64,000 nt of DNA from Crossiella sp. CA-258035 (lineage in GTDB: Bacteria; Actinomycetota; Actinomycetes; Mycobacteriales; Pseudonocardiaceae): assembly GCF_030064675.1 (NCBI RefSeq), contig NZ_CP116413.1, positions 6,790,001-6,854,000 of the forward strand. The letters run 5' to 3'. The stretch's first letter is position 1. Each line of letters starts with the position of its first letter. The notes under the pieces are model-generated. The model saw nothing but the letters and a program-made list of their open reading frames with translations. It was not told the DNA's origin and made no database searches. Positions 2,632-61,276 of the stretch are shown piece after piece. Position numbers and translations under genes: made by a program.

Positions 2632-4181
2632 CGATCACGGTTTTTGTGCCCCGCGACTCCGCCGCCTGTTCGGTGGGGGCGGACGCGGTGGCGAGCGCGA
2701 TCAGCCGAGGAGCCGCGGCCGCTGGGATCGAGGTGCGCCTGGTGCGCAACGGATCCCGCGGCATGCTGTGGCTGGAGCCGCTGGTGGAGGTGGCCACCGA
2801 CGCGGGCCGGATCGGCTACGGGCCGGTCTCCGCGAGCGAGGTGCCCGAACTGGTCAAGGCGGGACTGTTCACCGGCGGCGCGCACAAGAAACGCCTTGGC
2901 CTGGTCGAGGAGCTGCCGTGGATGGTCGCACAGCAGCGGCTGTGCTTCGCCAGGGTCGGCGTCACCGACCCGGTCTCCGCCGATGACTACCTGGCCAACG
3001 GCGGCATGGCCGGACTGCGGCGGGCGCTGGCCATGGATCCGGCCGAGGTGGTCAAGGAGGTCACCGACTCCGGGCTGCGCGGCCGCGGCGGCGCGGGCTT
3101 CCCGGCCGGGATCAAGTGGAACACCGTGCTCAAGGCCGACGGCGAGCTGAAGTTCGTCTGCTGCAACGCCGACGAGGGCGACTCCGGCACCTTCGCCGAC
3201 CGGATGCTGATCGAGGGCGACCCGTTCTGCCTGATCGAGGGCATGGCCATCGCGGCGTACGCCACCGGGGCCACCGAGGGGTACGTGTACCTGCGCTCGG
3301 AGTACCCGGACGCGGTGGCCACCCTGCGCCAGGCCATCGAGGTGGCCTACGCGCGCGGCTGGCTCGGCCAGGACTACTTGGGCTCTGGGCAGCGCTTCGA
3401 CCTGTTCGTGCGGGTCGGCGCGGGCGCCTACATCTGCGGTGAAGAGACCTCGATGCTGGAGAGCCTGGAGGGCAAACGCGGGATGGTGCGGGCGAAACCG
3501 CCCATCCCGGCGATCACCGGCCTGTTCGGCAAGCCGACCGTGGTGAACAACGTGCTCACCCTGGCCTCGGTGCCCAGCATCCTGGCCCACGGCGCGGCGG
3601 CCTACGCCGCGCTGGGGGTGGGCCGCTCGCTGGGCACCCAGGTCTTCCAGCTGGCGGGCAACATCAAGCACGGCGGGGTGTTCGAGACCGCCTTCGGCAT
3701 GTCGCTGGCCGAGCTGGTCAACGACTACGGCGGCGGCACCCGGTCCGGGCGGCCGGTGCGCGCCGTCCAGGTCGGCGGACCGCTGGGCGCGTACATCCCG
3801 GCGTCCACAATGGACATTCCTTTGGACTACGAGGCGTTCGCCGCGGCACAGGCGATGCTCGGGCACGGCGGCATCGTGGTCTTCGACGACACCGTGGACA
3901 TGGCGGCCATGGCCCGTTTCGCCATGGAGTTCTGCGCCGAGGAGTCCTGCGGCAAGTGCACCCCGTGCCGGGTGGGCTCGGTGCGCGGGGTGGAGACGAT
4001 CGACCGGATCGTCGCGGGCGTCGACCCGGACAACAACCTCGCGCTGCTGGGCGATCTGTGCGAGCTGATGACCGAAGGTTCGCTTTGCGCGATGGGCGGG
4101 TTGACGCCGAACCCGGTCCTGTCCGCGCTGCGGCACTTCCCGGATGACTTCACCGCCCGTCACGAGGGGACGGCACCATGA
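2628..4181 (+). CDS. fdsB: NAD-dependent formate dehydrogenase beta subunit (NuoF-like)
   Basis: A 517-residue flavoprotein that passes electrons from the Fds complex to NAD+. About 110 N-terminal residues form a thioredoxin-like domain, followed by the NuoF core: GRGGAGFPAGIKW near residue 152 (NADH site), NADEGDSGTFADR and GAYICGEETSMLESLEGKRG (FMN site), and ESCGKCTPCRVG near residue 440, which with a later cysteine binds a [4Fe-4S] cluster. It is coupled to both neighbours by ATGA overlaps. Around 3802-3825 the codons ACA, ATT, CCT and TTG break the otherwise GC-rich usage at one copy of the dispersed GTCCACAATGGAC motif. Confidence 0.95.
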   Translation: MTITVFVPRDSAACSVGADAVASAISRGAAAAGIEVRLVRNGSRGMLWLEPLVEVATDAGRIGYGPVSASEVPELVKAGLFTGGAHKKRLGLVEELPWMVAQQRLCFARVGVTDPVSADDYLANGGMAGLRRALAMDPAEVVKEVTDSGLRGRGGAGFPAGIKWNTVLKADGELKFVCCNADEGDSGTFADRMLIEGDPFCLIEGMAIAAYATGATEGYVYLRSEYPDAVATLRQAIEVAYARGWLGQDYLGSGQRFDLFVRVGAGAYICGEETSMLESLEGKRGMVRAKPPIPAITGLFGKPTVVNNVLTLASVPSILAHGAAAYAALGVGRSLGTQVFQLAGNIKHGGVFETAFGMSLAELVNDYGGGTRSGRPVRAVQVGGPLGAYIPASTMDIPLDYEAFAAAQAMLGHGGIVVFDDTVDMAAMARFAMEFCAEESCGKCTPCRVGSVRGVETIDRIVAGVDPDNNLALLGDLCELMTEGSLCAMGGLTPNPVLSALRHFPDDFTARHEGTAP

Positions 4182-6982
4182 CCCTGTTCAAGGAACACGA
4201 CCTCGGCACCCCGGCCAAACCCGGCGAGGCCACCGTCAGCATCGAGGTCGACGGCATGCCGGTGCGGGTGCCCGAGGGCACCTCGGTGATGCGCGCCGCG
4301 GCCGAGACCGGCATCGACATCCCCAAGCTGTGCGCCACCGACTCGTTGGAGGCCTTCGGTTCCTGCCGGCTGTGCCTGGTCGAGATCGACGGCCGCCGCG
4401 GCACTCCGGCCTCCTGCACCACGCCGGTGGCCGAGGGCATGCGGGTCAGCACCCAGTCGCCGAAGCTGGAGAAGCTGCGGCAGGGCGTGCTGGAGCTCTA
4501 CATCTCCGACCACCCGCTGGACTGCCTGACCTGTTCGGCCAACGGGGACTGCGAGCTGCAGGACATGTCCGGCGTGGTCGGGCTGCGGCAGGTGCGCTAC
4601 GGCTACGAGGGCGAGAACCACCTCGACCTGGAAACCGACAGCAGCAACCCCTACTTCGACTTCACCCCGTCCAAGTGCATCGCCTGCTCCCGCTGTGTGC
4701 GGGCCTGCGGCGAGGTGCAGGGCACCTTCGCGCTGACCATCGAGGGCCGGGGCTTCGACTCCAAGGTCTCCGCGGGCGCGGGCGAGCTGTTCATGGACTC
4801 CGAGTGCGTCTCCTGCGGGGCCTGCGTGCAGGCCTGCCCGACCGCGACACTCCAGGAGAAGTCGGTCATCGAGCTGGGCATGCCCACCCGCAGCGTGATC
4901 ACCACCTGCGCCTACTGCGGGGTCGGCTGCTCGTTCAAGGCCGAGCTGCGCGGCACCGAGCTGGTGCGGATGGTGCCGTACAAGGACGGCGGCGCGAACG
5001 AGGGCCACTCCTGCGTCAAGGGCCGCTTCGCCTTCGGCTACGCCACCCACCCGGACCGCCAGCTCGAACCGATGGTGCGGGACAGCATCGAGGAGCCGTG
5101 GCGGGTGGTGGACTGGGAGACCGCGATCACCACCGTGGCCACGAAGATGCGTGAGATCCAGGCCCGCCACGGCCCGGCCTCGATTGGTGGCATCACCTCC
5201 TCCCGGTGCACCAACGAGGAGGTCTACGCGGTGCAGAAGATGGTCCGCGCGGCCTTCGGCAACAACAACGTGGACACCTGCGCCCGGGTCTGCCACTCCC
5301 CCACCGGCTACGGCCTCAAGCAGACCTTCGGCACCAGCGCGGGCACCCAGGACTTCAAGTCGGTGGCGCGGGCCGATGTGATCGTGGTGATCGGGGCCAA
5401 CCCGACCGACGGCCACCCGGTGTTCGCCTCCAGGATGAAGAAGCGGCTGCGCGAGGGCGCCAAGCTGGTGGTGATCGACCCGCGCCGGATCGACCTGGTC
5501 CGCTCCCCGCACATCGAGGCCCAGCACCACCTCCAGCTCAAGCCGGGCGCGAACGTGGCCGTGGTGAACGCGATGGCACACGTGATCGTCACCGAAGGTC
5601 TCGTCGATCAGTCCTTTGTGGACGAACGGTGTGAGGGCTTCGAGGACTGGGCGGAGTTCATCGCCAGGCCGGAGAACAGCCCGGAGGCCACCGAGGAGCT
5701 CAGCGGGGTCCCGGCAGCCGAGCTGCGCGCGGCGGCCCGGCTCTACGCCACCGGCGGCAACGCGGCCATCTACTACGGCCTCGGTGTCACCGAGCACAGC
5801 CAGGGCTCCACCATGGTGATGGGCATGGCGAACCTGGCCATGGCCACCGGCAACATCGGCCGCGACGGCGTGGGCGTGAACCCGTTGCGGGGGCAGAACA
5901 ACGTGCAGGGCTCCTGCGACATGGGCTCCTTCCCGCACGAGCTGCCGGGCTACCGGCACGTCTCCGACGAGGCGGTCCGCGAGGTCTTCGAGACCCTGTG
6001 GCAGCGGCCGATCCTGGCCGAGCCGGGCCTGCGCATCCCCAACATGTTCGACGCCGCCATCGACGGCAGCTTCCGGGCGCTGTTCGTGCACGGTGAGGAC
6101 ATCGCCCAGTCCGACCCCAACACCAACCACGTCTTCAGCGCGCTGCGGGCGATGGACCTGGTGGTGGTGCAGGACCTGTTCCTCAACGAGACCGCGAAGT
6201 TCGCGCACGTCTTCCTGCCGGGCACCTCGTTCCTGGAGAAGGACGGCACCTTCACCAACGCCGAACGCCGGATCAACCGGGTCCGCCCGGTGATGGCGCC
6301 CAAGACCGGCAAGCACGAGTGGCAGATCGTGGCCGAGATCGCCCAGGCCATGGACTACCCGATGTCCTGGCACAGCACCAGCGAGATCATGGACGAGATC
6401 GCCGCCACCACGCCCACCTTCGCCGGGGTCAGCTTCGAGCGGCTGGACAAGCTGGGCAGCATCCAGTGGCCCTGCAACGCCAACGCGCCGGAAGGCACGC
6501 CGATCATGCACGTGGACGGCTTCGTCCGCGGCAAGGGCCACTTCGTGCCGACCACCTACGTGCCCACCCAGGAACGCAGCACCCGCAAGTTCCCGCTGAT
6601 CCTGACCACCGGCCGGATCCTCAGCCAGTACAACGTGGGCGCGCAGACCCGGCGCACCAAGAACGTGGTCTGGCACCCGGAGGACCTCCTGGAGATCCAC
6701 CCGCACGACGCGGAGGTGCGCGGCATCAACGACGGTGACGAGGTCTCACTGGCCAGCAGGGTCGGTGAGACGACATTGCGCGCGGTGCTCTCGGACCGGA
6801 TGCCGGTCGGCGTCGTCTACACCACCTTCCACCACCCGGTCACCGGGGCGAACGTGGTCACCACGGAGAACTCCGACTGGGCCACCAACTGCCCCGAGTA
6901 CAAGGTCACCGCGGTCCAGGTCGGACTGCGCGGCCCGGTTGCCCCGTCCCAGGCCGGAACGGCCGAAGCACTGGTGGAGTAA
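4178..6982 (+). CDS. fdsA: NAD-dependent formate dehydrogenase catalytic alpha subunit (molybdopterin)
   Basis: A 934-residue catalytic subunit oxidising formate to CO2 at a bis-molybdopterin guanine dinucleotide centre. In order it has an N-terminal [2Fe-2S] ferredoxin domain (CRLCLVEI region), a NuoG-type HPLDCLTC [4Fe-4S] site, two ferredoxin clusters (CIACSRCVRACG and CVSCGACVQACP), the proximal CAYCGVGC...C cluster, and the molybdopterin domains including the C-terminal dinucleotide-binding region. The metal ligand is cysteine 372 in VDTCARVCHSPTG, where some enzymes carry selenocysteine; the following histidine is present. The start overlaps the fdsB stop. No fdhD sulfurtransferase or cofactor genes are in the window, so maturation factors must lie elsewhere. 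Confidence 0.95.
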   Translation: MTLFKEHDLGTPAKPGEATVSIEVDGMPVRVPEGTSVMRAAAETGIDIPKLCATDSLEAFGSCRLCLVEIDGRRGTPASCTTPVAEGMRVSTQSPKLEKLRQGVLELYISDHPLDCLTCSANGDCELQDMSGVVGLRQVRYGYEGENHLDLETDSSNPYFDFTPSKCIACSRCVRACGEVQGTFALTIEGRGFDSKVSAGAGELFMDSECVSCGACVQACPTATLQEKSVIELGMPTRSVITTCAYCGVGCSFKAELRGTELVRMVPYKDGGANEGHSCVKGRFAFGYATHPDRQLEPMVRDSIEEPWRVVDWETAITTVATKMREIQARHGPASIGGITSSRCTNEEVYAVQKMVRAAFGNNNVDTCARVCHSPTGYGLKQTFGTSAGTQDFKSVARADVIVVIGANPTDGHPVFASRMKKRLREGAKLVVIDPRRIDLVRSPHIEAQHHLQLKPGANVAVVNAMAHVIVTEGLVDQSFVDERCEGFEDWAEFIARPENSPEATEELSGVPAAELRAAARLYATGGNAAIYYGLGVTEHSQGSTMVMGMANLAMATGNIGRDGVGVNPLRGQNNVQGSCDMGSFPHELPGYRHVSDEAVREVFETLWQRPILAEPGLRIPNMFDAAIDGSFRALFVHGEDIAQSDPNTNHVFSALRAMDLVVVQDLFLNETAKFAHVFLPGTSFLEKDGTFTNAERRINRVRPVMAPKTGKHEWQIVAEIAQAMDYPMSWHSTSEIMDEIAATTPTFAGVSFERLDKLGSIQWPCNANAPEGTPIMHVDGFVRGKGHFVPTTYVPTQERSTRKFPLILTTGRILSQYNVGAQTRRTKNVVWHPEDLLEIHPHDAEVRGINDGDEVSLASRVGETTLRAVLSDRMPVGVVYTTFHHPVTGANVVTTENSDWATNCPEYKVTAVQVGLRGPVAPSQAGTAEALVE

Positions 6983-6985
6983 CGC

Positions 6986-7204: not shown

Positions 7205-7248
7205 GCCCCTCGCGCCCGTTCCGGTCCATCGGGACGGGCGCGATGGGT

Positions 7249-7254
7249 TAGGCT
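7249..7254 (+). promoter_or_regulatory. -10 element of a leaderless transcript
   Basis: TAGGCT ends six bases before the GTG at 7261, the spacing at which actinobacterial transcripts begin on the first base of the start codon. No convincing -35 hexamer is seen. It would drive the leader peptide and the methyltransferase behind it. Confidence 0.45.
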
Positions 7255-7260
7255 GGCGGT

Positions 7261-7296: not shown

Positions 7297-7300
7297 GCCC

Positions 7301-15018: not shown

Positions 15019-15816
15019 CTATCCCCTCTCCTGGCCGGCGCCGACCGCGTGCGCCCCGCCGTCGACGTGCAGGATCTCCCCGGTGACCGAGGGCAGCCAC
15101 TCCGACAGCAGCGCGCACACCACCCTGGCCACCGGTTCGGTGTCGGTCTGGTCCCAGCCCAGCGGGGCCCGGTCCGCCCACAACCGGTCCAGCTGGTCGA
15201 ACCCGCCGATGCCGCGCGCGGCGAGTGTCCGAAGTGGACCGCAGGCGACCAGGTTGACCCTGGTTCCCTGTGGCCCCAAGGCTTGCGCGAGATAGCGGCA
15301 GCAGCTCTCCAGGCCCGCCTTGGCCACGCCCATCCAGTCGTAGCCGGGCCAGGCCAGGCTGGCGTCGAAGTCCAGGCCGACCAGGGAGCCGTGCGCGGAC
15401 TTGGCCAGCAGCGGGCCGAAGACCCGGCCGAAGGCGGCGAAGGAGTAGGTGGAGATGTGCAGCGCGGTGGCCACCTCCGCCCACTCCGCGGTGAGGAAGC
15501 CGCCGCCGAGCGCGCTGGGCGGGGCGAAGGCCACCGAGTGCAGCACCCCGTCCAGCAGGCCCCAGCGGGCGTAGAGCGCGTCGGAGACCGCGTCCAGGTG
15601 CTCGGGCTGGGTGACGTCGAGCTCCAGCACGTCGCAGGGCTGGGGCAGGGTTTCCGCGATCGCCTCGGTGATGCGCAGGCCGCGGCCGAAGCCGGTGAGC
15701 ACGATCTCCGCGCCGTGTTCCTGGGCCATCCGGGCCACCCCGTAGGCGATGGAGCTCTCGGTGAGCACGCCGGTGATGAGGATCTTCTTGCCGGACAACA
15801 GCTTCGGCTCAGTCAC
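15019..15816 (-). CDS. InhA-like NADH-dependent enoyl-ACP reductase
   Basis: A 265-residue short-chain reductase closely resembling InhA/FabI. The nucleotide site is ILITGVLTESSIAYGVARMA, and the active site YDWMGVAK (about residues 157-164) has the Tyr-x6-Lys spacing of enoyl-ACP reductases, preceded by FDASLAWPG as in InhA. It reduces the double bond left by the dehydratase. The GTG start overlaps the ketosynthase stop by eight bases. Its place within a biosynthetic operon suggests a cluster-specific enzyme rather than the housekeeping FabI, though the sequence alone cannot exclude a second primary copy. Confidence 0.9.
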   Translation of the reverse strand: MTEPKLLSGKKILITGVLTESSIAYGVARMAQEHGAEIVLTGFGRGLRITEAIAETLPQPCDVLELDVTQPEHLDAVSDALYARWGLLDGVLHSVAFAPPSALGGGFLTAEWAEVATALHISTYSFAAFGRVFGPLLAKSAHGSLVGLDFDASLAWPGYDWMGVAKAGLESCCRYLAQALGPQGTRVNLVACGPLRTLAARGIGGFDQLDRLWADRAPLGWDQTDTEPVARVVCALLSEWLPSVTGEILHVDGGAHAVGAGQERG

Positions 15817-17026: not shown

Positions 17027-17265
17027 CAGGCGGCCTCGCGCTTGGACTCGATCAGCGAGGCGATGGTGGCCAGGGTGTCCGAAGTGGACACTTCGTTGTC
17101 CTTGACCCTGACCCCGAACTCCTTCTCGGTCACCAGGCCCAGCTCCACCAGGGCGAGGGAGTCCAGGTCGAGCTCGGCGAAGGTGGCCTCGGGCCGGACC
17201 TCCTCGGGCGGCACGCCGAAGCGGGTGGTCAGCAGCGAGGTCAGCTGGTCGAGCAGGGCGCTCAT
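17026..17265 (-). CDS. Acyl carrier protein
   Basis: A 79-residue acidic, helical carrier protein. The phosphopantetheine serine lies in ELDLDSLALVELG (about residue 36). The start overlaps the cyclase stop (ATGA) and the stop touches the ketosynthase start, the tight ACP-KS arrangement of type II synthases. It presumably carries the growing chain for the ketosynthase, dehydratase and enoyl reductase of this operon. Confidence 0.95.
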   Translation of the reverse strand: MSALLDQLTSLLTTRFGVPPEEVRPEATFAELDLDSLALVELGLVTEKEFGVRVKDNEVSTSDTLATIASLIESKREAA

Positions 17266-17735
17266 GGGATGGTCCTTTCCACAGGGATGGGGGGCAGGTC
17301 GTGCAGTTGGGTGGCCGCGCCGAAGAGTCCACTCAGGACGGAGCCCATGACCCGGCGGAGCAGCCGTTCGGCCACCGGGTCCATGGCCTCGGCGAGGCTG
17401 TCGATGCCGAAGTCGAAGTCCACCTGGAAGTCCACCGTGCAGCCGGTCTCGGCCCCGGTGATCCGCCAGGCGCCGCGGAAGTGCTCGAAGTCGCCGTCGA
17501 CCTGGCCGAACTCGACGCTGGTGGTCGCCGGGTCGAGGTGCTCCCACTCCCGCCAGCGCAACCGGCCGCGGCGGAAGGCGACCTCCCAGGCGGAATGCCG
17601 TGGCTCGCCGGGGAAGACCTCGACGGAGCGCACCTCCTCGGCGATGGCCGGGAAGCGGGTGAAGTCGGTGAGCAGGGTGAAGGCTTGCGCTGGACTGGCA
17701 CCGGGCACCTCGGCCAGCAGGTGGATCCGCCTCAT
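17262..17735 (-). CDS. SRPBCC (START-like) polyketide cyclase/aromatase-type protein
   Basis: A 157-residue helix-grip protein of the Polyketide_cyc/COQ10 family, from MRRIHLLAEVPG through FTLLTDFTRFPAIAEEVRSV to a long C-terminal helix. Such proteins shape or aromatise poly-beta-keto chains in type II systems, but some only bind acyl chains. With dehydratase and enoyl reductase in the same operon, a largely reduced chain is expected, so its role as an aromatase is doubtful; it may guide a single ring closure. Coupled by ATGA overlaps on both sides. Confidence 0.75.
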   Translation of the reverse strand: MRRIHLLAEVPGASPAQAFTLLTDFTRFPAIAEEVRSVEVFPGEPRHSAWEVAFRRGRLRWREWEHLDPATTSVEFGQVDGDFEHFRGAWRITGAETGCTVDFQVDFDFGIDSLAEAMDPVAERLLRRVMGSVLSGLFGAATQLHDLPPIPVERTIP

Positions 17736-18985
17736 CCGGCCACCGCCCTGGCCGCGGTGGCGAAGGCCTGGACGAGGAAGTCGAGCTCGGCCTCGTCCAG
17801 GGTGGCCGGCGGGGTGAGCCGCAGCACCTGGGCGGAGTTGAGCGAGTGGTTGGCGATGACCCCGGCGGCCATCAGCTCGGCCAGCAGGTCCGCGGCCAGG
17901 CCGGGCTTGCTGAACTCGATGCCGATGAGCAGTCCGGCGCCGCGCACCTCGCGCACCCGGGAGCCGAGGATGTCCTGGCACAGCGCGGAAAGCTTGGTCC
18001 GGATGTGCTCGCCGAGCCTGCCCGCGGCCTCGACCAGGCCGCCTTCCTGGATCGCCTCGATCGCCCCGCACACCGCGGCCATGGCCAGCGGGCTGGCGGA
18101 GAAGGTGGAGGTGTGCAGGTAGGGGTCGCGGTCGAAGGCGCGGAAGGCGGACTCGGTGGCCAGCACCGCGGACACCGGCAGCACCCCGCCGCCGAGCGCC
18201 TTGCCCACCACCAGCACGTCCGGGGTGATCCGCTCGCGGTCCGCGCCCCACCAGTGGCCGAGGCGGCCCAGGCCGGTCTGCACCTCGTCCAGGATGAAGA
18301 AGGCCCCGTACTCCCGGCACAGCCGCTGCGCCTCGGCCAGGTAGCCGGCCGGTGGCAGGACGACGCCGGCCTCGCCCTGCACGGGTTCCAGGATCAGCGC
18401 GGCCCTGCCCTCGTGCGCGGCCAGCTCCCGGCGCAGCGCGTCCGGGTCGCCGTAGGGCACGTGGCAGACGCCGGGCAGCAGCGGCCGGAACGGTTCCTGG
18501 AACACGCTGCGGGCGGTGACGCTGAGCGCGCCGAGGGTCTTGCCGTGGTAGCCGTCCCTGGCCGAGATCAGGTGGGTGCGGCCGTGCGTGCGGGCCAGCT
18601 TGATCGCGGTCTCCACCGCCTCGGCGCCGGAGCAGGCGAAGTGCACTTTGTCCATTGTGGACGGAGCGACCGCGGTGAGCGCGGCGGCGGCCTTGGCCGC
18701 GACGGGTTCGAGCAGCAGCTTGGTGGACACCGGCAGGGTGTGCAGCTGGGCGCGCACCGCGGCGACCACCCTGGGGTGGCGGGCGCCCATCAGCAGCACG
18801 CCGTAGCCGCCGCAGTTGAGCAACGCCCGGCCGCGGTTGGTGCGCACCCAGGCCCCGGTGGCGGACTGTTCCAGCTCGCGGCCGAACAGCTCGCCGAGTG
18901 CGGCCCGGCCGCGACTGAGGTGGGTGCGGTAGGCGGTGGCGGTGCGCTCGAACTCCGCCTCGGCCGCGGTGACGTCGACGGTCAT
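17732..18985 (-). CDS. Class III PLP-dependent aminotransferase
   Basis: A 417-residue fold-type I aminotransferase of the acetylornithine/ornithine/omega-amine group. The PLP region shows SGAEAVETAIKLAR, the cofactor aspartate in FILDEVQTGLGR and the Schiff-base lysine in VLVVGKALGGG near residue 260. In this operon, next to an aldehyde dehydrogenase and acyl-ACP enzymes, the simplest inference is amination of an aldehyde or keto group on the chain, giving an amine or, after cyclisation, a nitrogen heterocycle. A primary role in arginine or polyamine metabolism is less likely from context. Confidence 0.85.
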   Translation of the reverse strand: MTVDVTAAEAEFERTATAYRTHLSRGRAALGELFGRELEQSATGAWVRTNRGRALLNCGGYGVLLMGARHPRVVAAVRAQLHTLPVSTKLLLEPVAAKAAAALTAVAPSTMDKVHFACSGAEAVETAIKLARTHGRTHLISARDGYHGKTLGALSVTARSVFQEPFRPLLPGVCHVPYGDPDALRRELAAHEGRAALILEPVQGEAGVVLPPAGYLAEAQRLCREYGAFFILDEVQTGLGRLGHWWGADRERITPDVLVVGKALGGGVLPVSAVLATESAFRAFDRDPYLHTSTFSASPLAMAAVCGAIEAIQEGGLVEAAGRLGEHIRTKLSALCQDILGSRVREVRGAGLLIGIEFSKPGLAADLLAELMAAGVIANHSLNSAQVLRLTPPATLDEAELDFLVQAFATAARAVAG

Positions 18986-22613: not shown

Positions 22614-23594
22614 TCACAGCGCGCCGATCAGTCGCAGCAGCCGGTAGCCCGCGCCGAGGCTGAGGCCGTGCTCGAAGGCCAGGTACTCCGGCTCGATCAG
22701 GTGGGGCGCCCACTTGGTCTTGAACCGCTCCTGGGTGCGCGCGGAGTACAGCCAGCGCTCCCGCCCGGCGATCCGGCGCATGACCCCGTCGAGGATCCTG
22801 TTGTGCGCGCCGGGAATCCGGTGTTCCGGGTGGAGCTGGACGAACGGCGTGAAGCCCAGGTGCAGCCAGTCAGCGCCCTCGCCGCGGAAGACCTCCGCGG
22901 CGTGGGCGATGATCGACTCGATCGCGCCGGTCGGGGCGGCGGGGTGGCGGCGGGTCAGGTCGTAGAGCCAGCCCGGCCGCGGCCCGTAGACCGGGGAGAA
23001 GGAGATGTAGGCGACGATCCGCTCCGCCGCCCTGGCCACGAACAGTCTGCGGTGCGCCGCGCCCCGACCACCGCGCTCGCCGACCATGAAGCCGAGCTGT
23101 TTCACCGCCCGGCCCTTGGCGCGCAACCACTCCTGGTCGATCGCGGCCAGGGTCAGCGCCAGCTCAGTGTCCATTGTGGACTCCTCGGCGACCTGGACCC
23201 CGGCGCGGCGGGCCTGGGAGAGCCGGTTGCGGGTCTCGGCGAGCTTGCCGCCGCGGAGGGTGAACTGGGCCAGGTCGATGCTGAAGGAGGCGCCGAGCTG
23301 GTTGACCGCGTAGCCCAGCTCGGCGCAGGCCGCGGCCTCCTCCTTGAGCAGCTGCACGGCGGTGATCCGGCGGCCCTGCCCGGCGGCGAAGGCCCGGAAG
23401 GCCGCGGTCAGCGCGGGCTGGTCGACCTCGGCCGCGCACGGCCCGGTCAGCTGCACCAGGTGCCGTCGACCGGCTGGCCGATAGGCGATGAGGCCGTTGA
23501 TCCCCGGAGTCTGAAAGTGTTCGGTGTCCTGGTTGTAGGCCAGGAACGCGCTGGAGCTGCGGGCGTGCGCGCGCAGCAGGTCCACGGCGGTCAC
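22614..23594 (-). CDS. DUF2156/MprF-like GNAT-fold transferase
   Basis: A 326-residue soluble protein matching the C-terminal domain of lysylphosphatidylglycerol synthases (DUF2156), without their membrane segments. It consists of two tandem GNAT-like folds; AYISFSPVYGPRPGWLYDLTRR and LHLGFTPFV are typical. MprF-type domains transfer an amino acid from aminoacyl-tRNA to a lipid or other acceptor. In this cluster it might aminoacylate the product or a lipid intermediate; that is inference. GTG 23594 overlaps the upstream stop (GTGA); it is the last gene of the tailoring operon. Confidence 0.75.
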   Translation of the reverse strand: MTAVDLLRAHARSSSAFLAYNQDTEHFQTPGINGLIAYRPAGRRHLVQLTGPCAAEVDQPALTAAFRAFAAGQGRRITAVQLLKEEAAACAELGYAVNQLGASFSIDLAQFTLRGGKLAETRNRLSQARRAGVQVAEESTMDTELALTLAAIDQEWLRAKGRAVKQLGFMVGERGGRGAAHRRLFVARAAERIVAYISFSPVYGPRPGWLYDLTRRHPAAPTGAIESIIAHAAEVFRGEGADWLHLGFTPFVQLHPEHRIPGAHNRILDGVMRRIAGRERWLYSARTQERFKTKWAPHLIEPEYLAFEHGLSLGAGYRLLRLIGAL

Positions 23595-25261: not shown

Positions 25262-26608
25262 TCATTTCCCGTCGCGGCCGAAGCGGAGCGGCGCGCGACG
25301 TCCGGTGTGCAGGGAACGGCGGTCGTTGAGTTCGAGGAAGCCCTGGCGCAGCGGGTAGCGCAGCCGGTCCAGCACCGGCGCGGGCCTGGCCCCGCCGCGG
25401 TGCCAGGGCACGGTGGGCGGTGGCAGGGGTTTGCCGTGCAGGGCGGCGGCGAGCTGGCCGCTGAGCCAGCCCGCAGTGTGCAGGGCGGGCGCGATGCCCC
25501 GGCCGTTCCAGCCACCGGCGAACCACACGCCGGACTGGACCTGGCCGACGATCGGCATCCAGTCCGGGGTGGCCCCGCTGACCCCGGCCCAGGACCGGGC
25601 GATGCGCACCCCGTCCAGTGCCGGGAACAGTTGGCGCAGCTCGCGTTCCAGGCGTCGCCAGGTGCCGCCGGAGACCCTGGGCTGGGTGCCGGGCCGGGTG
25701 CTGGGGTTGGCCGCGCGGCCGCCGCCGAGGATGAGCCTGCCGTCCGGGCTCAGCCGCGCGTAGTTGAAGTAGGCCCGCGAGTCCAGCACCAGGTCTCCGG
25801 GCCGCAGCGGGAGCGCGGCGAGCGGTTCAGTGCACAGGGCCTGTGAGCGGAACGGGACCACCGGCAGCCGCACCAGCCCGGAAACCCTGGTGTAGCCGTC
25901 GATCGCGAGCACCACCTGCGCCGCGTCCACCTCACCGAGGTCGGTGCGCACCCGCACCCGCTCGCCGGGTTCCACCGAGCGCACCGGCGTGCCCTCGAAC
26001 ACCTCCACCCCGCGCGCCAGCAGCAGGTCTCGCAGTCCCCGGCACAGCCGCAGCGGGTCCAGCTGGTAGAGCGGAGCCACCCGTAGCGCGCCGAACCCAC
26101 CTTGCAGCCCAAGGGTTTCCGCGGCCTCGCGGGGCGAGAGCCAGTCCGCCTCCATGCCCAGACGGTTCAGCTCCGGCAGGTCGCCGGTGTAGCGGCGCAC
26201 GTGCTCGGCGGTGACCGGTAGCTGGTACATCCGGCCGCGCACCAGGTCACAGTCGATGCCCTCGGCGGTGACCAGCTCGTGCAGTGCGGCCATCCCGTCC
26301 AGGGAGGCCCTGGTCAGGCTGTCCGCAGCCGCGGCGCCAACTCGCTTGTGCAGCAACCGCATCGAGCCCCACACGCCCGGTCTGGCCAGTCCGGTGCTGT
26401 GCCCGGTCGCGCCGCCGCCGACCACCACGGCCTCCAGCAGCAGGATCCGCGCCGAGGGCAGCTCTTCGCGCAGCCGGTGCGCCAGGGACAGCCCGGCGAT
26501 CCCGCCGCCCACCACCACGACGTCCGCGCGGTGCCTGCCGGTCAGCGGCGGCAGCAGCGGTTCGGCGGTCGGCGCGCCGCCCCAGGGCGAGGTGTGCGCG
26601 AGGGTCAT
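25262..26608 (-). CDS. FAD-dependent amine/amino-acid oxidase-like protein (DAO family)
   Basis: A 448-residue flavoprotein of the DadA/glycine-oxidase family. The FAD dinucleotide site is VVVVGGGIAGLSLAHRL near residue 32, and the C-terminal AGGWNGRGIAPALHTAG is the second FAD contact. Such enzymes oxidise C-N bonds of amines or amino acids to imines. With an aminotransferase in the cluster, an imine or pyrroline-forming step on an amine intermediate is plausible. The start overlaps the upstream monooxygenase stop (ATGA). Confidence 0.85.
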   Translation of the reverse strand: MTLAHTSPWGGAPTAEPLLPPLTGRHRADVVVVGGGIAGLSLAHRLREELPSARILLLEAVVVGGGATGHSTGLARPGVWGSMRLLHKRVGAAAADSLTRASLDGMAALHELVTAEGIDCDLVRGRMYQLPVTAEHVRRYTGDLPELNRLGMEADWLSPREAAETLGLQGGFGALRVAPLYQLDPLRLCRGLRDLLLARGVEVFEGTPVRSVEPGERVRVRTDLGEVDAAQVVLAIDGYTRVSGLVRLPVVPFRSQALCTEPLAALPLRPGDLVLDSRAYFNYARLSPDGRLILGGGRAANPSTRPGTQPRVSGGTWRRLERELRQLFPALDGVRIARSWAGVSGATPDWMPIVGQVQSGVWFAGGWNGRGIAPALHTAGWLSGQLAAALHGKPLPPPTVPWHRGGARPAPVLDRLRYPLRQGFLELNDRRSLHTGRRAPLRFGRDGK

Positions 26609-27936
26609 CGCGACACCGCCAGGCTCGGCGCCTGCCCGGCGCGTTCCCGGAAAGCCCTGCGGCGCAGCAGGTTCAGCCGCACCAGTGCCCCGGCCTCGCG
26701 GAGCACCGCCGGCGCGGGCACGCCGGAGAGGACCTGGTTCAGCGCGGTGCGGGCCAGCCGAGTCGCGGTGAGCAGGGTGTCGGCGTCCCGCTTGTCCGCC
26801 ATGACCTCGTCCAGCCTGCGGACGCCGGTCGCGTCCAGCCCGCGGAAGAAGGCCTTGCGCAGCGCGCCGACCGGGGCCGCGTCGCCCAGCTCCTGGCTGT
26901 ACCAGAAGTTGGCCAGCTCGGCCTGGTCCCGCCGCCGCGCCCACTCCCGCAACCGTTCCGGCAGCGCCTGTTGATCGTCCCAAGTGGACAGCAGGGCGGT
27001 GGCCAGCGCGGCGGAGTTGCGCAGCGCGTCGGTGATGCCGTGACCGATGGTGGCGTCCTTGGCGTGCCCGGCGTCCCCTACCAGGGCCCAGCCCGGCCCG
27101 AAGGGCTGCCGGAAGAAGCACGGGTAGCCGATCATCCGGCGCAGCCCGCCCACCGGCTCGCCGCCGCTGGCCAGCTCGGCGATCTCCGGACTGACCCGCT
27201 CCACCCACGGCAGCAGCGCGTCCGCCCCGGTGCGCCGGAAGTCCTCCGGATCGCCCACCGGCGGCTGTGCGCACAGGTAGTACTCCTCCGCCCCGGTGGG
27301 CAGGATGTGCGCCAGCCGCGCGCCGACCCGGTGCCACAGCAGCACCCTGGGCAGCCGCTTGCCGCGGAAGTACCGCCACACCTGGCCGCGGCCGCTGCGG
27401 AAGGTCAGGTACTGGGTGGCGCGCACCCAGCGGGCCACCGGCGAGCTGCGCCCGTCCGCGCCGACCACCAGCCGGGCCCGCACCGGCCGCACCCGCCCGT
27501 CCTGGTCGGCGACCTCCACCCCGACCACCCGGTCGCGCTCGCGCAGCAGCCCGACCACCGGGCGGCCCAGGTGCACCTCCGCCCCGGCCGCGCGGGCCCG
27601 GTCCAGCAGCAGGTTGTCCAGCAGCTCACGCGGCGGGCACAGCCCGGGGTCGGCGGGGTGCCGGAAGGTCAGCCGCAGCTCGTCCAGGCGCACCTGGACC
27701 TCCGGCAGCGGCGGCACCCCGGCGGCCACCAAGTCGTCATAGACGCCTTCGGCGCGCAGGTCCTGGGTGCCGTGGAAGATGTGCGTGGACAGCGTCGGCC
27801 CGAGCTCAACCGCCCGCTCGTACACCGCAACCCGCAGCCCGGCCCTGGCCAGCCTGGCCGCCAGCGCGGCGCCCGCGACCCGGCCGCCGACCACCGCGAC
27901 GTCCACTGTGGACGTTGTTCTCGAGGACACCGCCAT
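26605..27936 (-). CDS. FAD-dependent monooxygenase (PHBH fold)
   Basis: A 443-residue flavin monooxygenase. The FAD site is VDVAVVGGRVAGAALAARLA near residue 10, the DG motif is RLVVGADGRSSPVARW, and the second FAD motif is GWALVGDAGHAKDATIGHG. It belongs with geranylgeranyl-reductase/halogenase-like and aromatic hydroxylase-like enzymes. ATG 27936 is chosen over a longer frame because AAGGGGC precedes it and the FAD motif then lies at the usual distance. First gene of the five-gene tailoring operon, divergent from the TetR gene. Confidence 0.85.
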   Translation of the reverse strand: MAVSSRTTSTVDVAVVGGRVAGAALAARLARAGLRVAVYERAVELGPTLSTHIFHGTQDLRAEGVYDDLVAAGVPPLPEVQVRLDELRLTFRHPADPGLCPPRELLDNLLLDRARAAGAEVHLGRPVVGLLRERDRVVGVEVADQDGRVRPVRARLVVGADGRSSPVARWVRATQYLTFRSGRGQVWRYFRGKRLPRVLLWHRVGARLAHILPTGAEEYYLCAQPPVGDPEDFRRTGADALLPWVERVSPEIAELASGGEPVGGLRRMIGYPCFFRQPFGPGWALVGDAGHAKDATIGHGITDALRNSAALATALLSTWDDQQALPERLREWARRRDQAELANFWYSQELGDAAPVGALRKAFFRGLDATGVRRLDEVMADKRDADTLLTATRLARTALNQVLSGVPAPAVLREAGALVRLNLLRRRAFRERAGQAPSLAVSR

Positions 27937-35530: not shown

Positions 35531-35543
35531 GTCCACAATGGAC
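35531..35543. repeat. Intergenic copy of the dispersed 13-bp motif GTCCACWNNGGAC
   Basis: GTCCACAATGGAC lies in the 52-bp gap between the YceI and pirin genes. Exact fits to the pattern in either orientation also occur at 3802, 5611, 15227, 17077, 17327, 18650, 23169, 26977, 27901, 36465 and 60521. Near matches with one mismatch lie at 19350, 25248, 41627, 55926 and 60308. Confidence 0.7.
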
Positions 35544-36464: not shown

Positions 36465-36477
36465 GTCCACAGTGGAC
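36465..36477. repeat. Second intergenic copy of the dispersed 13-bp motif
   Basis: GTCCACAGTGGAC, a near-perfect palindrome about 80 bp past the terminator and 15 bp from the stop of the DinB-like gene. The spacer 36385-36464 around it is AT-richer than its surroundings and holds no gene. Confidence 0.6.
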
Positions 36478-58092: not shown

Positions 58093-58108
58093 GGTTTTCC
58101 TCCCCAGT

Positions 58109-58155
58109 TTGAGCGTTCGCTCAATATGAAAGCAGTTCTTAAGCGATTGCTCAAG
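58109..58155. promoter_or_regulatory. Paired palindromic operators between lipoprotein and GNAT genes
   Basis: TTGAGCGTTCGCTCAA (58109-58124) has perfect seven-base arms around TT. A second, imperfect copy, CTTAAGCGATTGCTCAAG, spans 58138-58155, centre-to-centre distance 30 bp. The shape fits a TetR-family dimer pair; no TetR gene is adjacent. Confidence 0.65.
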
Positions 58156-58204
58156 TATCGGCGAGCGTGATCGGCTGACCGGACCGCGAGCAGAGGAGCT
58201 GGGG

Positions 58205-58642
58205 ATGGTTGAGGTCGGGCCGCTTGGCGAGCAGGAGCGCGACGCCTGGCAGGAGTTGTTCCGCGGCTACACCGAGTTCTACCGGCGGGTGATGCCACAG
58301 GAGAGCTACGACCGGGCCTGGCGGGAGTTCCGCGAGGACACCAGGATGCACGCGCTGGGCGCGCGGATCGACGGCCGACTGGTCGGCATCACGCACTTCC
58401 TGGTGCACCCGAGCACCTCGTCAGCGGATGTCTGCTACCTCCAGGACCTGTTCACCTCCCCCGAGGCGCGTGGCCGCGGGGTGGCGCGGGCGCTGATCGA
58501 GGCGGTGGTGGACTGGGCGCGGGCACGGGAGTGCGCGCGGGTCTACTGGCACACCCAGGAGACGAACGCGACCGCGCGGCGGCTCTACGACCAGGTGGCG
58601 CTCAACAAGGGGTTCATCCAGTACCAGGTGCCGCTGGACTGA
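58205..58642 (+). CDS. GNAT-family N-acetyltransferase
   Basis: A 145-residue acetyltransferase: YLQDLFTSPEARGRGVARALIEAVVDWAR is the acetyl-CoA loop, preceded by LVGITHFLVHPSTSS and ended by RVYWHTQETNATARRLYDQVA. It is of the general small-molecule or protein acetylating type; no substrate can be named. ATG 58205 has GAGGAGCTGGGG upstream. Its stop is four bases from the convergent ligase gene. Confidence 0.85.
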   Translation: MVEVGPLGEQERDAWQELFRGYTEFYRRVMPQESYDRAWREFREDTRMHALGARIDGRLVGITHFLVHPSTSSADVCYLQDLFTSPEARGRGVARALIEAVVDWARARECARVYWHTQETNATARRLYDQVALNKGFIQYQVPLD

Positions 58643-58646
58643 CCGC

Positions 58647-60002
58647 TCAGAGGCGCTCGAAGCCGCGGCGCAGCTCCCAGTCGGTGACCGCGGCGGTGAA
58701 GGCGTCCAGCTCGGCCTGGGCGGCCCTGGCGTAGTGGCCGACCACCTCGGCGCCGAAGGCGGCCTCGGCGACCGGGCTGGTCCGCCACAGGTCCAGGGCG
58801 GTGGCCAGGTCCGGCGGCAGGGTGCGGCCCTCGGCGCTGAAGGCGTTGCCCTGGAAGGGTTCTTCGAGCTCCAGGCGCTGCTCGATGCCGTGCAGGCCCG
58901 CGGCGATGACCGCGGCGACCGCGAGGTAGGGGTTGGCGTCGCCGCCGGGGACGCGGTGTTCCAGGCGCAGCGACTCGCCCTGGCCGACCACCCGGATCGG
59001 GCAGGTGCGGTTGTCCCGGCCCCAGCCGAGCACGGTGGGCGCGAACGCGCCGGGGGCGAACCGCTTGTAGGAGTTGACGTTCGGGGCCTGGAACAGGACC
59101 AGCTCCCTGGCGCAGGCCAGCGTGCCGGCGACGAAGTGCCGCATCAGCGCGGACATCCCCGCGCCTTGCGCGAACACCGGCCGGTCGTCCGGGTCGCGCA
59201 GGGACAGGTGCAGGTGGCAGGAGTTGCCCTCGCCGGTGTCGAACTTGGCCATGAAGGTCAGCGCCTGACCGTGCGCGGCCGCGATCTGCTTGGCGCCGGT
59301 CTTGTACAGTACGGTGTTGTCGCAGGTGGTGAGCGCGTCTCGGTGGCGGAACACGATCTCGTACTGGCCTGGGTGGCATTCGCCGCGCGCGGACTCCAGG
59401 CGCAGTCCCGCGCGCACCATGTCCCGGCGGATGCGGTTGACCAATGGGTCCACATCGGACAGTCCGGCCACCGCGTAGTCCACGTTGTGCCGGGTGGCCG
59501 GGCGCAGGTCCTGGTAGCCGCGGTCCCATGCGGTCTGGTAGTCCTCGCGGAAGACCAGGAACTCCAGCTCGGCGCCGACCTGTGCGGACAGGCCGAGGGC
59601 GGCGAGCCGGTCGAGCTGGGTGCGCAGGACCTGCCGGGGGGCCACGGTCACCGGGTCGCCGCCGGGCCAGTGCGCGTCGGCGAGCACCAGCGCGGTGCCC
59701 TCGTCCCAGGGCAGCAGGCGCAGCGTGGCCGGGTCGGGGATGAGCGTGAAGTCGCCGAATCCCGTTGCGGCGGCGTCGATCGCGTAGCCGGGGCCGGTGG
59801 TCATGTCCACGTCCACGGCGAGCAGGTAGGCGCAGGCGGCGGTGACTCCGGCCGTGTCCAGGTAGTGCTCGGCGTCCACCCGGCTGCCGACCAGGCGGCC
59901 GGTGAGGTCGGGCAGGGCGACGATCACGTTGTCCACCAGGCCCTCGGCCACCGCGGCCCGCAGCCGTTCCGGCGGCAGCGGGACCGGCTGGCGGGCGGTC
60001 AC
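58647..60002 (-). CDS. Glutamine synthetase-family ligase (gamma-glutamyl-polyamine-synthetase-like)
   Basis: A 451-residue member of the glutamine synthetase superfamily: QVGAELEFLVF (metal-binding glutamates), AKFDTGEGNSCHLHLSL (ATP/metal), NSYKRFAPGAFAPT and NRTCPIRV (glutamate binding). It lacks the Tyr adenylylation loop of GlnA. Relatives such as PuuA and Streptomyces GlnA3/GlnA4 join glutamate to polyamines or ethanolamine. GTG 60002 overlaps the N-monooxygenase stop (GTGA), putting it in the same operon as the diaminopropane-forming genes, which suggests a diamine or siderophore intermediate as acceptor. Confidence 0.85.
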   Translation of the reverse strand: MTARQPVPLPPERLRAAVAEGLVDNVIVALPDLTGRLVGSRVDAEHYLDTAGVTAACAYLLAVDVDMTTGPGYAIDAAATGFGDFTLIPDPATLRLLPWDEGTALVLADAHWPGGDPVTVAPRQVLRTQLDRLAALGLSAQVGAELEFLVFREDYQTAWDRGYQDLRPATRHNVDYAVAGLSDVDPLVNRIRRDMVRAGLRLESARGECHPGQYEIVFRHRDALTTCDNTVLYKTGAKQIAAAHGQALTFMAKFDTGEGNSCHLHLSLRDPDDRPVFAQGAGMSALMRHFVAGTLACARELVLFQAPNVNSYKRFAPGAFAPTVLGWGRDNRTCPIRVVGQGESLRLEHRVPGGDANPYLAVAAVIAAGLHGIEQRLELEEPFQGNAFSAEGRTLPPDLATALDLWRTSPVAEAAFGAEVVGHYARAAQAELDAFTAAVTDWELRRGFERL

Positions 60003-61276
60003 GGGGCCCCGAAGGTGGTGAAGGCGGTGCGTTCGGGCAGGCGGTGCACGGTGCGGCCGGTGACCGCGTTGAGGATGGTGGCCGCGCGCCAGGCGCCCAG
60101 GGTCAGGTCCGGCGCGCCGACACCGTGTGTGTGCAGCTCGCCGTTCTGCACGTACAGGCCGCCGGTGACCGCCGGGTCCAGCTCGATCCGGTAGTCGGCA
60201 TCGATGCGGTGGCGGCGGCTGTCGTCCCAGCGCACGAGGTGGCCGAGGGGATCCAGGAACGGTGGTACGCTCGCGGCGTAGCCGGTGGCGAGGACTACTC
60301 GGTCGGTGTCCACTGTGTACGGCCGGTCCTGCTGGATCTCGTGGCAGCCCAGGCGATAGCGGCCATCGACCTGTTCGACCGTGCGGATCTCGGTGTGCGG
60401 GTTGAGCTGCGCGGGCACCTCGCCGCCGCCGATGGTGCGTTCGTAGAGCAGGTCGTGGATCTCGGCCAGGGTGTCCACGCTGACCGCCTTGTACAGCTGC
60501 CACTGCGCGGGCACGAGTCTGTCCCTTGTGGACGGTGACAGGCCGCGGAAGTAGCTGGTGTAGTCCGGGGTGAAGTGTTCCAGGCCGAGCTTGGAGTACT
60601 CCATCGGCGCGAACCGGCCCCTGGTCAGCCAGCGCACCCGGCTGCCGGTCTCCGGCTGGCGGCGCAGCAGGTCGAGGAACACCTCGGCGCCGGACTGGCC
60701 GGAGCCGACCACGGTGACGTCGGCGGCCGCGGTGAGCACGGGCAGGTTCGGCAGGTAGTCGGCGGCGTGGCAGATCTCCTTGCCCAGCAAGGGCCGGAAC
60801 GCCCCGGGCACCCGTGGCTGGGTACCGACGCCGAGCACCACGTTGCGGGCCAGCAGCTCTCCCCCGCTGTACGTGACCCGGAAGGCGCCGCGGCCCGCGT
60901 CCCAGGACACCGCGGTGACCTCGGCGCCGAACCGGCAGGAGGGCAGGGAGCCGGCGACCCAGCGGCAGTAGTGGTCGTACTCGCGGCGTGGCACGTGGAA
61001 GCGTTCGGCGAAGAAGAACGGGAACATCCGGTCGTGCTCGCGCAGGTAGTTCAGGAAGGACCAGCGGCTGGTCGGGTCGACCATGGTGACCAGGTCGGCC
61101 AGGAACGGCACCTGGAGCTGGGCGCCGTCGATGAGCAGCCCGGGGTGCCAGCTGAACTCGGCGCGCCGGTCCAGGAACACCGCGTCCAGGCCGGGCACCG
61201 CGTCGGCCAGCGCGGCCAGGCCCAGGTTGAACGGGCCGAGCCCGATCCCGGCCAGGTCGTGCACCTGCGCGCTCAT
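59999..61276 (-). CDS. Siderophore N-monooxygenase (IucD/RhbE-like)
   Basis: A 425-residue flavin-dependent N-hydroxylating monooxygenase. FAD site GIGLGPFNLGLAALA near residue 9, NADPH site VTVVGSGQSGAEVFLDLL near residue 190, and the second FAD contact VVLATGYAASVPP. MVDPTSRWSFLNYLREHDRMFPFFF is typical of lysine/ornithine/diamine hydroxylases. Context points to 1,3-diaminopropane (or cadaverine/lysine) as substrate. Coupled upstream to the decarboxylase and downstream to the glutamine-synthetase-like gene by four-base overlaps. Confidence 0.9.
   Translation of the reverse strand: MSAQVHDLAGIGLGPFNLGLAALADAVPGLDAVFLDRRAEFSWHPGLLIDGAQLQVPFLADLVTMVDPTSRWSFLNYLREHDRMFPFFFAERFHVPRREYDHYCRWVAGSLPSCRFGAEVTAVSWDAGRGAFRVTYSGGELLARNVVLGVGTQPRVPGAFRPLLGKEICHAADYLPNLPVLTAAADVTVVGSGQSGAEVFLDLLRRQPETGSRVRWLTRGRFAPMEYSKLGLEHFTPDYTSYFRGLSPSTRDRLVPAQWQLYKAVSVDTLAEIHDLLYERTIGGGEVPAQLNPHTEIRTVEQVDGRYRLGCHEIQQDRPYTVDTDRVVLATGYAASVPPFLDPLGHLVRWDDSRRHRIDADYRIELDPAVTGGLYVQNGELHTHGVGAPDLTLGAWRAATILNAVTGRTVHRLPERTAFTTFGAP

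Follow-up and report, generated by a model that had tools for sequence, protein, structure and literature searches.

A stretch of 64,000 nucleotides of Crossiella (Pseudonocardiaceae) DNA, analysed here in full and called the window, repeats a 13-bp near-palindrome in genes for mostly unrelated proteins, which raises the question of whether this word is maintained as DNA and what might read it. The word has the general form GTCCACW(NN)GGAC and the best form GTCCACWGTGGAC. There were 15 matches in the window, corresponding to 13 distinct exact places, two of which are full palindromes and hence counted on both strands, compared with a mean of 0.11 and a maximum of 1 match in 100 dinucleotide-preserving shuffles. 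The claimed excess far above chance in 64 kb was thus borne out, and the G/C-centred version of the pattern gave no matches in the window (0.22 expected). The 12 exact copies listed in the original prediction were all present (the one given as 3802 begins at 3803), but one had been overlooked at 59448-59460. Copies with a single mismatch were recovered as well at 19350, 25248 (here 25247), 41627, 55926, 60308 and 63363, together with one more at 20419. With genes called by a simple purpose-made gene caller, 10 of the 13 places lay entirely within genes, eight of these sharing a single phase, and two (35531 and 36465) were intergenic, as described before; the place at 27901 straddles a gene start.

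Places of the 13-bp word in the window and their state in three Crossiella relatives (G001, G002 and G003).
Word	Context	Position	Strand	Relatives
GTCCACAATGGAC	nuoF-like gene (Complex1_51K), peptide ASTMD	3803..3815	+	same in G001, G002; G003 without site
GTCCACAAAGGAC	nuoG-like molybdopterin oxidoreductase gene, QSFVD	5611..5623	-	same in G001, G002
GTCCACTTCGGAC	short-chain dehydrogenase gene	15227..15239	-	same in G001; G002 changed at two free positions only
GTCCACTTCGGAC	acyl-carrier-protein gene	17077..17089	-	same in G001, G002; G003 fails by G centre alone
GTCCACTCAGGAC	polyketide-cyclase-like gene	17327..17339	+	same in G001, G002; G003 without site
GTCCACAATGGAC	class-III aminotransferase gene, PSTMD	18650..18662	-	same in G001, G002; G003 without site
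GTCCACAATGGAC	LPG_synthase_C gene, ESTMD	23169..23181	-	same in G001, G002; G003 site differs at free position
GTCCACTTGGGAC	FAD-dependent oxidoreductase gene, LSTWD	26977..26989	-	same in G001, G002; G003 without site
GTCCACTGTGGAC (full palindrome)	across start of gene 26605-27906(-)	27901..27913	.	G001 centre A for T; G002 same
GTCCACAATGGAC	intergenic	35531..35543	+	G001, G002 changed at two free positions only
GTCCACAGTGGAC (full palindrome)	intergenic	36465..36477	.	G001 unaligned; G002 (71.6% identity) one-base gap in site
GTCCACATCGGAC	glutamine-synthetase-like gene	59448..59460	+	in 4/4 Crossiella genomes compared, centre A or T
GTCCACAAGGGAC	lysine/ornithine monooxygenase gene	60521..60533	-	G002 same; G001 free position differs; G003 without site
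GTCCAAAGCGGAC (one-off word)		63363..63375	+	orthologous 13-mers in G001, G002 are true sites (GTCCAAAGTGGAC)

The whole 9.17-Mb genome gave 815 forward and 815 reverse matches; as 460 full palindromes match on both strands, these correspond to about 1,170 distinct places or roughly one site per 8 kb, and the reversed word, used as a control, gave 4 and 5 matches. A genome sample of 1.664 Mb, or 18% of the total, was analysed further, and here the core GTCCACWGTGGAC was about 1,000-fold over-represented. The sample contained 241 sites, 216 genic and 19 intergenic, the six straddling sites being inside the total and outside both of these counts.

The sequence rule was strict: an A/T centre, a spacer of 1 bp and one perfect half. 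Sites with an A/T centre and one perfect half were observed 241 times versus 2.3 expected, whereas the same form with a G/C centre was observed 17 times versus 14.3 expected (1.664 Mb). Inverted GTCCAC/GTGGAC pairs numbered 98 at a spacer of 1 bp and 0 or 1 at each other spacer from 0 to 12, and the imperfect half of a site retains GTCC and drops AC. Within genes, the numbers of words with 0, 1, 2 and 3 mismatches were 216, 131, 691 and 5,513, respectively, so that exact sites were commoner than one-off words, opposite to the intergenic regions where one-off words (37) exceeded exact sites (19).

The original prediction had named a codon-shuffled null beforehand as its refuting test. In 1.664 Mb this null gave 6.6 expected genic sites (maximum 14 in 60 shuffles) compared with 216 observed, and 1.2 full palindromes compared with 87 observed. 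The peptide STVD was found 84 times where 6.7 were expected, an approximately 12-fold excess, and 76 of these 84 peptides were encoded by TCC-AC[T/A]-GTG-GAC, with ACA and ACT together constituting 3.7% of the Thr codons. Selection acts on the word as DNA throughout the chromosome and keeps it even at the cost of rare codons and altered peptides.

To follow the sites among relatives, the reference genome (G000) was aligned with G001 and G002 (about 88% identity) and with a fourth Crossiella, G003 (about 83%); another genome of the same species, G503, was used for counting only. The motif was retained at 16/16 aligned G000 sites in G001 and at 16/17 in G002, the sole exception being an intergenic site that aligns poorly and has a one-base gap. 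Identical 13-mers were found at 12/16 and 14/17 sites, respectively, compared with 30% of random 13-mers (p = 3×10−4 and 1×10−5), and ACW codons were retained in 20/20 cases within sites versus 33/105 outside (p = 3×10−9). The predicted conservation of the DNA beyond the residues thus held in G001 and G002 but not in G003, where the motif was common to 3/12 aligned sites, which indicated a rapid turnover of site positions on some branch. In the reverse direction, 2/18 aligned G001 sites and 4/20 aligned G002 sites were non-sites in G000. Sites set aside for unaligned bases amounted to 1/17, 0/17 and 5/17 from G000 to G001, G002 and G003, and to 5/23 and 3/23 in reverse; S-centred sites, with 0-3 aligned and 0 or 1 retained per pair, were not numerous enough for a control of conservation. 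The site word at 5611 also recurs at the same gene position in Crossiella S99.2 and SN42 and in Amycolatopsis GM8 (locus position 11434, gene match from 10001). Together, the codon shuffle, the STVD codons, the strict rule, the conservation and the mismatch spectrum strongly support the proposal that codon choice is overridden by a constraint at the level of the DNA.

Insertion of a mobile word was rejected as the origin of the sites, since site-less orthologous 13-mers align mostly without gaps (gaps were seen in one relative at 3/13 window sites, and at a few G001 and G002 sites versus G003); the word arises through base substitution in place. A repeated protein domain was likewise rejected given the mostly unrelated proteins, some repeats being found in PKS modules.

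Across 297 Pseudonocardiaceae genomes the counts were genus-typical and ranged from 0 to 640, with genus, singleton genera included, accounting for 91% of the variance of root counts, and in a phylum sample the remaining 395 genomes had at most 2 each. Many genera are without the motif for no obvious reason. In 200 kb each of G006 and G015, two relatives with low counts, alternate palindromes were only weakly enriched, 9- and 12-fold, versus 349-fold for the arms of the motif in G011. No Pseudonocardiaceae plasmid occurred among the 60 of 1,900 entries listed. The phage contig G715, which carries capsid, DNA polymerase and exonuclease genes, had 24 places in 68.6 kb, a higher density than in the Crossiella genome, and none for the reversed control. 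Phage contigs had been picked via a motif seed, with phage structural genes shown for G715 only. Among viral stretches, 80 of 86 were read (749 kb), giving 120 W and 9 S sites, with at least 80 of the W sites being the seeds themselves; 36 contigs, preferably those with two or more sites, were counted whole and 17 of these held the seed place alone. The identity of G715 to named phages was 29-36% (40 of 356 and 60 of 2,800 listed), with uninformative hosts, and a search for relatives of its DNA polymerase returned only itself. Its capsid relatives in IMG/VR, at 16 other loci, had W-type sites in 4 (2, 1, 3 and 1) and none in 12, which makes the phage enrichment lineage-specific. The trait is genus-typical in Pseudonocardiaceae and dense also in one phage genome.

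The distribution of sites along the chromosome gave no significant ori/ter zoning (80 samples of 20 kb): the ten blocks of 8 samples each contained 13-31 sites (chi-square test, p = 0.13), with over-dispersed counts (variance/mean 1.67) and the lowest numbers, 13 and 15, in the first two blocks. With the terminus placed at half the contig, asymmetric sites were divided 42/38 and 32/31 by replichore, showing no orientation bias of the kind that KOPS/FtsK or Chi polarity would need, and 57/72 by gene strand. This lack of strand preference argues for a double-stranded DNA site rather than an RNA or strand-read motif, and an RNA hairpin was rejected for the same reason. The genic sites were spread along the genes, with no promoter preference. 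MatP/matS, SlmA and Noc sites are also palindromic chromosomal landmarks, and matS is likewise 13 bp, but such sites number in the tens as compared with the hundreds of places here. A chromosome-segregation site, one of the candidates proposed at the outset, was weakened by the absence of significant zoning and of replichore polarity.

Two other proposed candidates were not supported. Against a DnaA sink, 17 of the 20 TTGTCCACA boxes in 1.664 Mb were located outside sites, the TCCACA end of the box is not retained in the imperfect half, and lone half-sites were below expectation (GTCCACA 201 versus 251, GTCCACT 162 versus 210). Against a restriction-modification target, the word is hugely over-represented and present in phage G715, and no DNA methyltransferase family among PF00145, PF01555 and PF02384 was common to 22 motif-rich genomes, PF02384 being present in 17/22, G000 included. 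ParB_N was found in 43/44 genomes whether motif-rich or not, and a parS/ParB system was rejected for lack of tracking. No cognate protein was found among ParB_N and the three methyltransferase families.

Given the genome-wide copies, the selection at the DNA level and the presence in a phage, the word probably serves as a landmark that a protein reads, and we find it fairly likely that this is a genome-wide, double-stranded recognition site of a putative homodimeric sequence-specific DNA-binding protein. Judging from the sequence, a dimer would bind the site with each half reading GTCC(AC); one half would have to be perfect, the other would need GTCC only, and the shared central base pair would have to be A-T. 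Since there is no significant zoning, no polarity and no promoter preference and a phage carries the sites, the reader appears to treat any resident DNA alike, and we infer that it is closer to a Chi-type or self-identity landmark or to a nucleoid protein acting on all DNA than to a segregation or gene-regulatory site. On the best reading, the site resembles HIP1 or Chi in behaviour and is a member of neither. Among the matches listed for the open-access literature (titles and abstract openings), neither the word nor such a palindrome was described in these bacteria. A 13-bp site selected at more than 1,000 places and reshaping proteins, as with STVD, implies that these actinobacteria have a system acting genome-wide, and a phage with the same word suggests that the reader acts on invading DNA too. 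The 13-mer could be used directly as bait for its protein, and the contrast between motif-rich and motif-free genera makes the function testable.

What such a landmark would do can be answered only tentatively. In a Chi-like or self-identity version, possible though less likely than not, the bound site would halt or tame machinery that degrades DNA, either a defence nuclease or end resection of the AdnAB type, and the host chromosome and adapted phages would both carry it at a spacing of a few kb. The Chi sites known so far are short, lack palindromic symmetry and are recognised on one strand, whereas the present site is palindromic and dimer-type, with no strand polarity and no recombination enzyme linked to it. 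The likeness lies in over-representation and spacing, Chi of E. coli occurring once per 5 kb according to a source that also gives its sequence and a polarity criterion (PMC8022716). The site density in the genome and in G715 is consistent with this version, as is the lower number of sites in samples of low GC content (10 sites in 8 samples versus 218 in 72). RecC was absent from 22/22 motif-rich genomes tested, and 40 or more sites were found in 0/47 RecC-bearing genomes as compared with 134/250 without RecC; however, 41 of the 47 RecC-positive genomes fall in two genera, so that the association is confounded with ancestry, and genera with few sites yet without RecC exist (g3, g23, g24 and g293). 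A more specific form, somewhat unlikely as it stands, is a palindromic 'passport' in which a dimer would read GTCCACWNNGGAC about every 8 kb as self, protecting that DNA against a nuclease that RecBCD-less actinobacteria use for processing or defence, with phages of these hosts having evolved the same passport.

It is possible, if doubtful, that the site instead belongs to a sequence-specific nucleoid-associated protein shaping the whole chromosome, as would fit the lack of significant zoning and polarity. An actinobacterial protein of this kind with sites in the thousands is Gbn, the GATC-binding nucleoid protein of Streptomyces (about 2,800 bound regions), but its site GATCWT is short and of another sequence, and the term 'overrepresented' is absent from that paper (PMC9239103). 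Phage enrichment and loss from whole genera are also not what one would expect of a structural essential. That the recognition site serves other functions is rather unlikely.

A non-adaptive drive, in which a methylation- or repair-linked mutation bias makes the palindrome, appears quite unlikely. The precedent is HIP1, an iterated palindrome occurring about once per kb in many cyanobacteria, which with the alternate HIPs shares the high iteration, the clade-typical occurrence and the excess far above chance (PMC4390886). As with HIPs, the palindrome is spread through genes and intergenic DNA; it differs in being 13 bp with an odd A/T centre rather than a word of 5-8 bp (PMC4390886), and in occurring about once per 8 kb. 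HIPs accompany a methyltransferase, and here PF02384 did give a match of about 200 bits in each of G000, G003, G011 and G452, but no family was shared by the motif-rich genomes tested, no C5 enzyme matched in G000, G011, G609 or G056, and G056 lacked a match in all three families and G009 in two of them. Thirteen bp is moreover long for a methyltransferase site, and one-off words are rare in genes.

Maintenance as a DNA-uptake sequence by biased natural transformation is very unlikely: the Neisseria DUS and Haemophilus USS are likewise repeated words maintained in coding DNA, and the in-place substitution and clade-typical occurrence would agree, but they are non-palindromic, and a phage bearing the word is not predicted. 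Sites of an IclR-type transcription factor are highly improbable, since the regulatory GTCCAC-N3-GTGGAC of Streptomyces NdgR (19 loci) shares the half-site (PMC4340878) but has a spacer of 3, found here at 1 place versus 98 at spacer 1, and the present sites lie mainly along genes. Among the remaining half-site arrangements, everted pairs numbered 0-2 per spacer, and direct pairs at spacers 0, 3, 6 and 9 numbered 6, 12, 10 and 10 on both strands (single-strand expectation about 1), an excess that perhaps reflects repeated codons.

The original prediction held that a dispersed 13-bp palindrome is constrained as DNA, overriding codon usage, and named twelve exact copies in the window. All twelve were recovered by pattern search, together with an additional exact copy at 59448. 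Within the window, GTCCACWNNGGAC matched 15 times, at 13 distinct places, far above the shuffled mean of 0.11 matches; the G/C-centred version gave none (0.22 expected). The window spans 6,790,001-6,854,000 of one contig of 9,170,171 bp. The genus is Crossiella, given that a NuoG-like protein encoded in the window matches Crossiella sp. S99.2 and SN42 at 95-99%. A count over the whole genome, as had been proposed, gave 815 forward and 815 reverse matches compared to 4 and 5 for the reversed control. Given that the full palindrome GTCCACWGTGGAC (460 places) matches on both strands, this corresponds to about 1,170 places, or one per 8 kb.

The sequence requirements were examined in 80 evenly spaced 20-kb pieces plus the window (1.664 Mb in total), where the motif core yielded the top over-represented 9-mers and occurred at 98 places, against about 0.1 expected under a fourth-order Markov model. 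Among all GTCC-N5-GGAC words, 241 combined an A/T centre with one or both halves perfect (GTCCAC; 2.3 expected), compared with 17 (14.3 expected) for the same words with a G/C centre; A/T-centred words without a perfect half numbered 40 (9.1 expected) and all G/C-centred words 116 (61.6 expected). Inverted half-sites were found 98 times with a spacer of 1 and at most once with each spacer of 0 or 2-12. Words with 0, 1, 2 and 3 mismatches numbered 216, 131, 691 and 5,513 within genes and 19, 37, 114 and 642 between genes; exact sites thus outnumber one-mismatch words in genes and the reverse holds in intergenic regions. The genic excess fits a sharp loss of value in imperfect words. In the densest relative, G011, 23 of 47 sites in 160 kb were full palindromes. 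From this grammar we infer a site read by a two-fold symmetric protein, and the motif is most naturally explained by a putative binding protein that acts as a homodimer.

In the same sample 216 sites were genic, 19 intergenic and 6 straddling (genic density 0.146 per kb, intergenic 0.105 per kb). Codon shuffling within genes, the null proposed originally, gave 6.6 genic sites (maximum 14 in 60 shuffles) against the 216 observed. The predominance of a single codon phase was borne out, with 179/216 genic sites in one reading phase. The peptide STVD occurred 84 times (6.7 expected), compared to 15 or fewer for its other permutations, and 76 of the 84 were encoded with the threonine codons ACT/ACA, which are indeed rare (3.7% of threonine codons). 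Most of the proteins carrying sites are unrelated, as originally noted. Genes of at least 1,000 aa make up 10.9% of coding bases but contain 44 of the 216 genic sites.

At aligned sites the motif was kept in 16/16 cases in G001 and 16/17 in G002, two Crossiella relatives with about 88% identity to the genome studied (G000). Twelve and 14 of these 13-mers, respectively, were identical, compared to 30% of random 13-mers; the remaining kept sites had an A-to-T change of the central base or changes in the free bases, and the one unkept site in G002 was a one-base gap at 36465. ACW codons were retained in 20/20 comparisons inside sites and 33/105 outside (Fisher's exact test, p = 3e-9). In the reverse direction, 16/18 aligned G001 sites and 16/20 aligned G002 sites were sites in G000, and between G001 and G002 (94.6% identity) 21/22 and 21/23 were common to both. 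Together, the shuffled null and the orthologue conservation establish computationally the DNA-level constraint claimed. The fourth Crossiella genome, the more distant G003 (83%), shared only 3/12 aligned sites despite 330 palindromes genome-wide; site positions have therefore turned over on some branch. Since orthologous site and non-site 13-mers mostly align without gaps, sites arise by substitution.

Mapping against ori/ter and strand, also suggested originally, revealed no significant zoning (13-31 sites in each of ten chromosome blocks, p = 0.13, the lowest, 13 and 15, being the first two), no replichore polarity and no clear gene-strand orientation. With ParB located at 9.164 Mb, the origin probably lies close to position 1. 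The variance/mean ratio over samples was 1.67; the eight samples under 70% GC held 10 sites and the other 72 held 218, as if the former contained recent arrivals without the motif.

A scan of IMG/VR with CTGTCCACWGTGGAC returned 86 stretches and the S-centred (G/C-centre) control at least 120, indicating that viruses in general are not enriched. Among 36 seed contigs counted whole, a selection favouring contigs with more than one site, the seed place was alone in 17 and a few were dense (see table); the reversed control gave 0, except 1 in one contig. G715 encodes a major capsid protein, family-A DNA polymerase, primase/helicase and exonuclease; its genes for the polymerase, primase and exonuclease contain sites. 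Its polymerase matches actinophage polymerases at 29-36% among the matches listed, and 16 other IMG/VR loci with related capsids had 0-3 sites each. The proteins tested from G713, G716 and G724 matched no informative phage family. Four of the six gaps between G724 (L357) sites are near 10 kb, the others being 15.4 and 4.6 kb. In G716 (L320), one variant, GTCCACATCGGAC on either strand, accounts for 8/13 sites; this contrasts with the mixture in the host and may reflect a preference for that variant. The lack of significant zoning, the lack of polarity and the presence in a phage favour a function that extends to all intracellular DNA; a Chi-like mark, a self mark or a nucleoid protein would be examples.

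Among 297 genomes of the family, counts ranged from 0 to 640 and genus accounted for 91% of the variance in root counts (singleton genera included): Crossiella 330-500, g289 323-426, g16 6-225 (median 156), g8 68-129, g5 0-2 (25 genomes) and g297 0 (18/18). Outside the family but within the order, 16 of 24 genomes had none and eight had 1-237; across a 396-genome sample of the phylum, each of the 395 genomes other than Crossiella itself held at most two. Loci surrounding NuoG (15-23 kb each) had 4 and 7 sites in Crossiella, 6, 0, 5, 2 and 3 in Amycolatopsis, 2, 2 and 1 in Saccharopolyspora, 0, 0, 1 and 1 in Pseudonocardia, 2, 0 and 0 in Prauserella, and none in Streptomyces, Kribbella and others examined; the remaining loci (694 kb) had 0 W-centred (A/T-centre) and 3 S-centred words. 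Abrupt drops occur within genera: G710 (g16) has 6 against the median of 156, G504 (g19) 13 against 134, G511 (g31) 10 against about 100, and G043 1 against 114 in G056 (both g41). Such congeneric genomes are useful for tracing the cognate gene.

The search for a reader covered three methyltransferase families in 22 motif-rich genomes and did not find one. PF00145 (C5-cytosine methyltransferase) was absent from G000, G011, G609 and G056, among others; PF01555 was absent from G009, G018, G609, G031 and G056, and its match in G000 was partial, covering just 51 positions; and PF02384 was present in 17/22, including a 199-bit match in G000, and absent from G004, G009, G685, G647 and G056. Hence none accompanies the motif throughout. 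The motif behaves like the cyanobacterial iterated palindromes, but is not counted among them because no methyltransferase link was found with these three families.

RecC (PF04257) was present in 47/297 family genomes, all with under 40 sites (maximum 38), whereas 134/250 genomes without it have 40 or more. Two genera account for 41 of the 47, and two or fewer sites also occur in 39 genomes that lack RecC; this association is therefore a lead and not a result. RecBCD, judged by RecC, is patchy in the Pseudonocardiaceae (24/25 of g5, 17/18 of g297, 6 of 254 others), and where it occurs the 13-bp word is scarce or absent.

A second dispersed repeat, found in the window and at further loci (see table), forms facing arrays of a unit that recurs every 22 bp and reads approximately GTGTTGGCCGTTGTCGTACGGT. 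Convergent genes flank 19 of its 20 intergenic places, compared to 106 of 672 gaps of at least 60 bp, and it is perhaps a terminator-like cruciform element.

Viral contigs dense in the 13-bp site and positions of the 22-bp-periodic repeat
Feature	Location or length	Sites or setting
Viral contig G715	68.6 kb	24 places
Viral contig G716	48.9 kb	13 places
Viral contig G713	14.4 kb	9 places
Viral contig G714	64 kb	7 places
Viral contig G724	60.4 kb	7 places
22-bp-periodic repeat	window 200-400	between genes 1-183(+) and 398-1612(-)
22-bp-periodic repeat, further copy	L046 12295-12437	
22-bp-periodic repeat, further copy	L051 8145-8254	
22-bp-periodic repeat, further copy	L056 13899-14041	
22-bp-periodic repeat, further copy	L069 7708-7808
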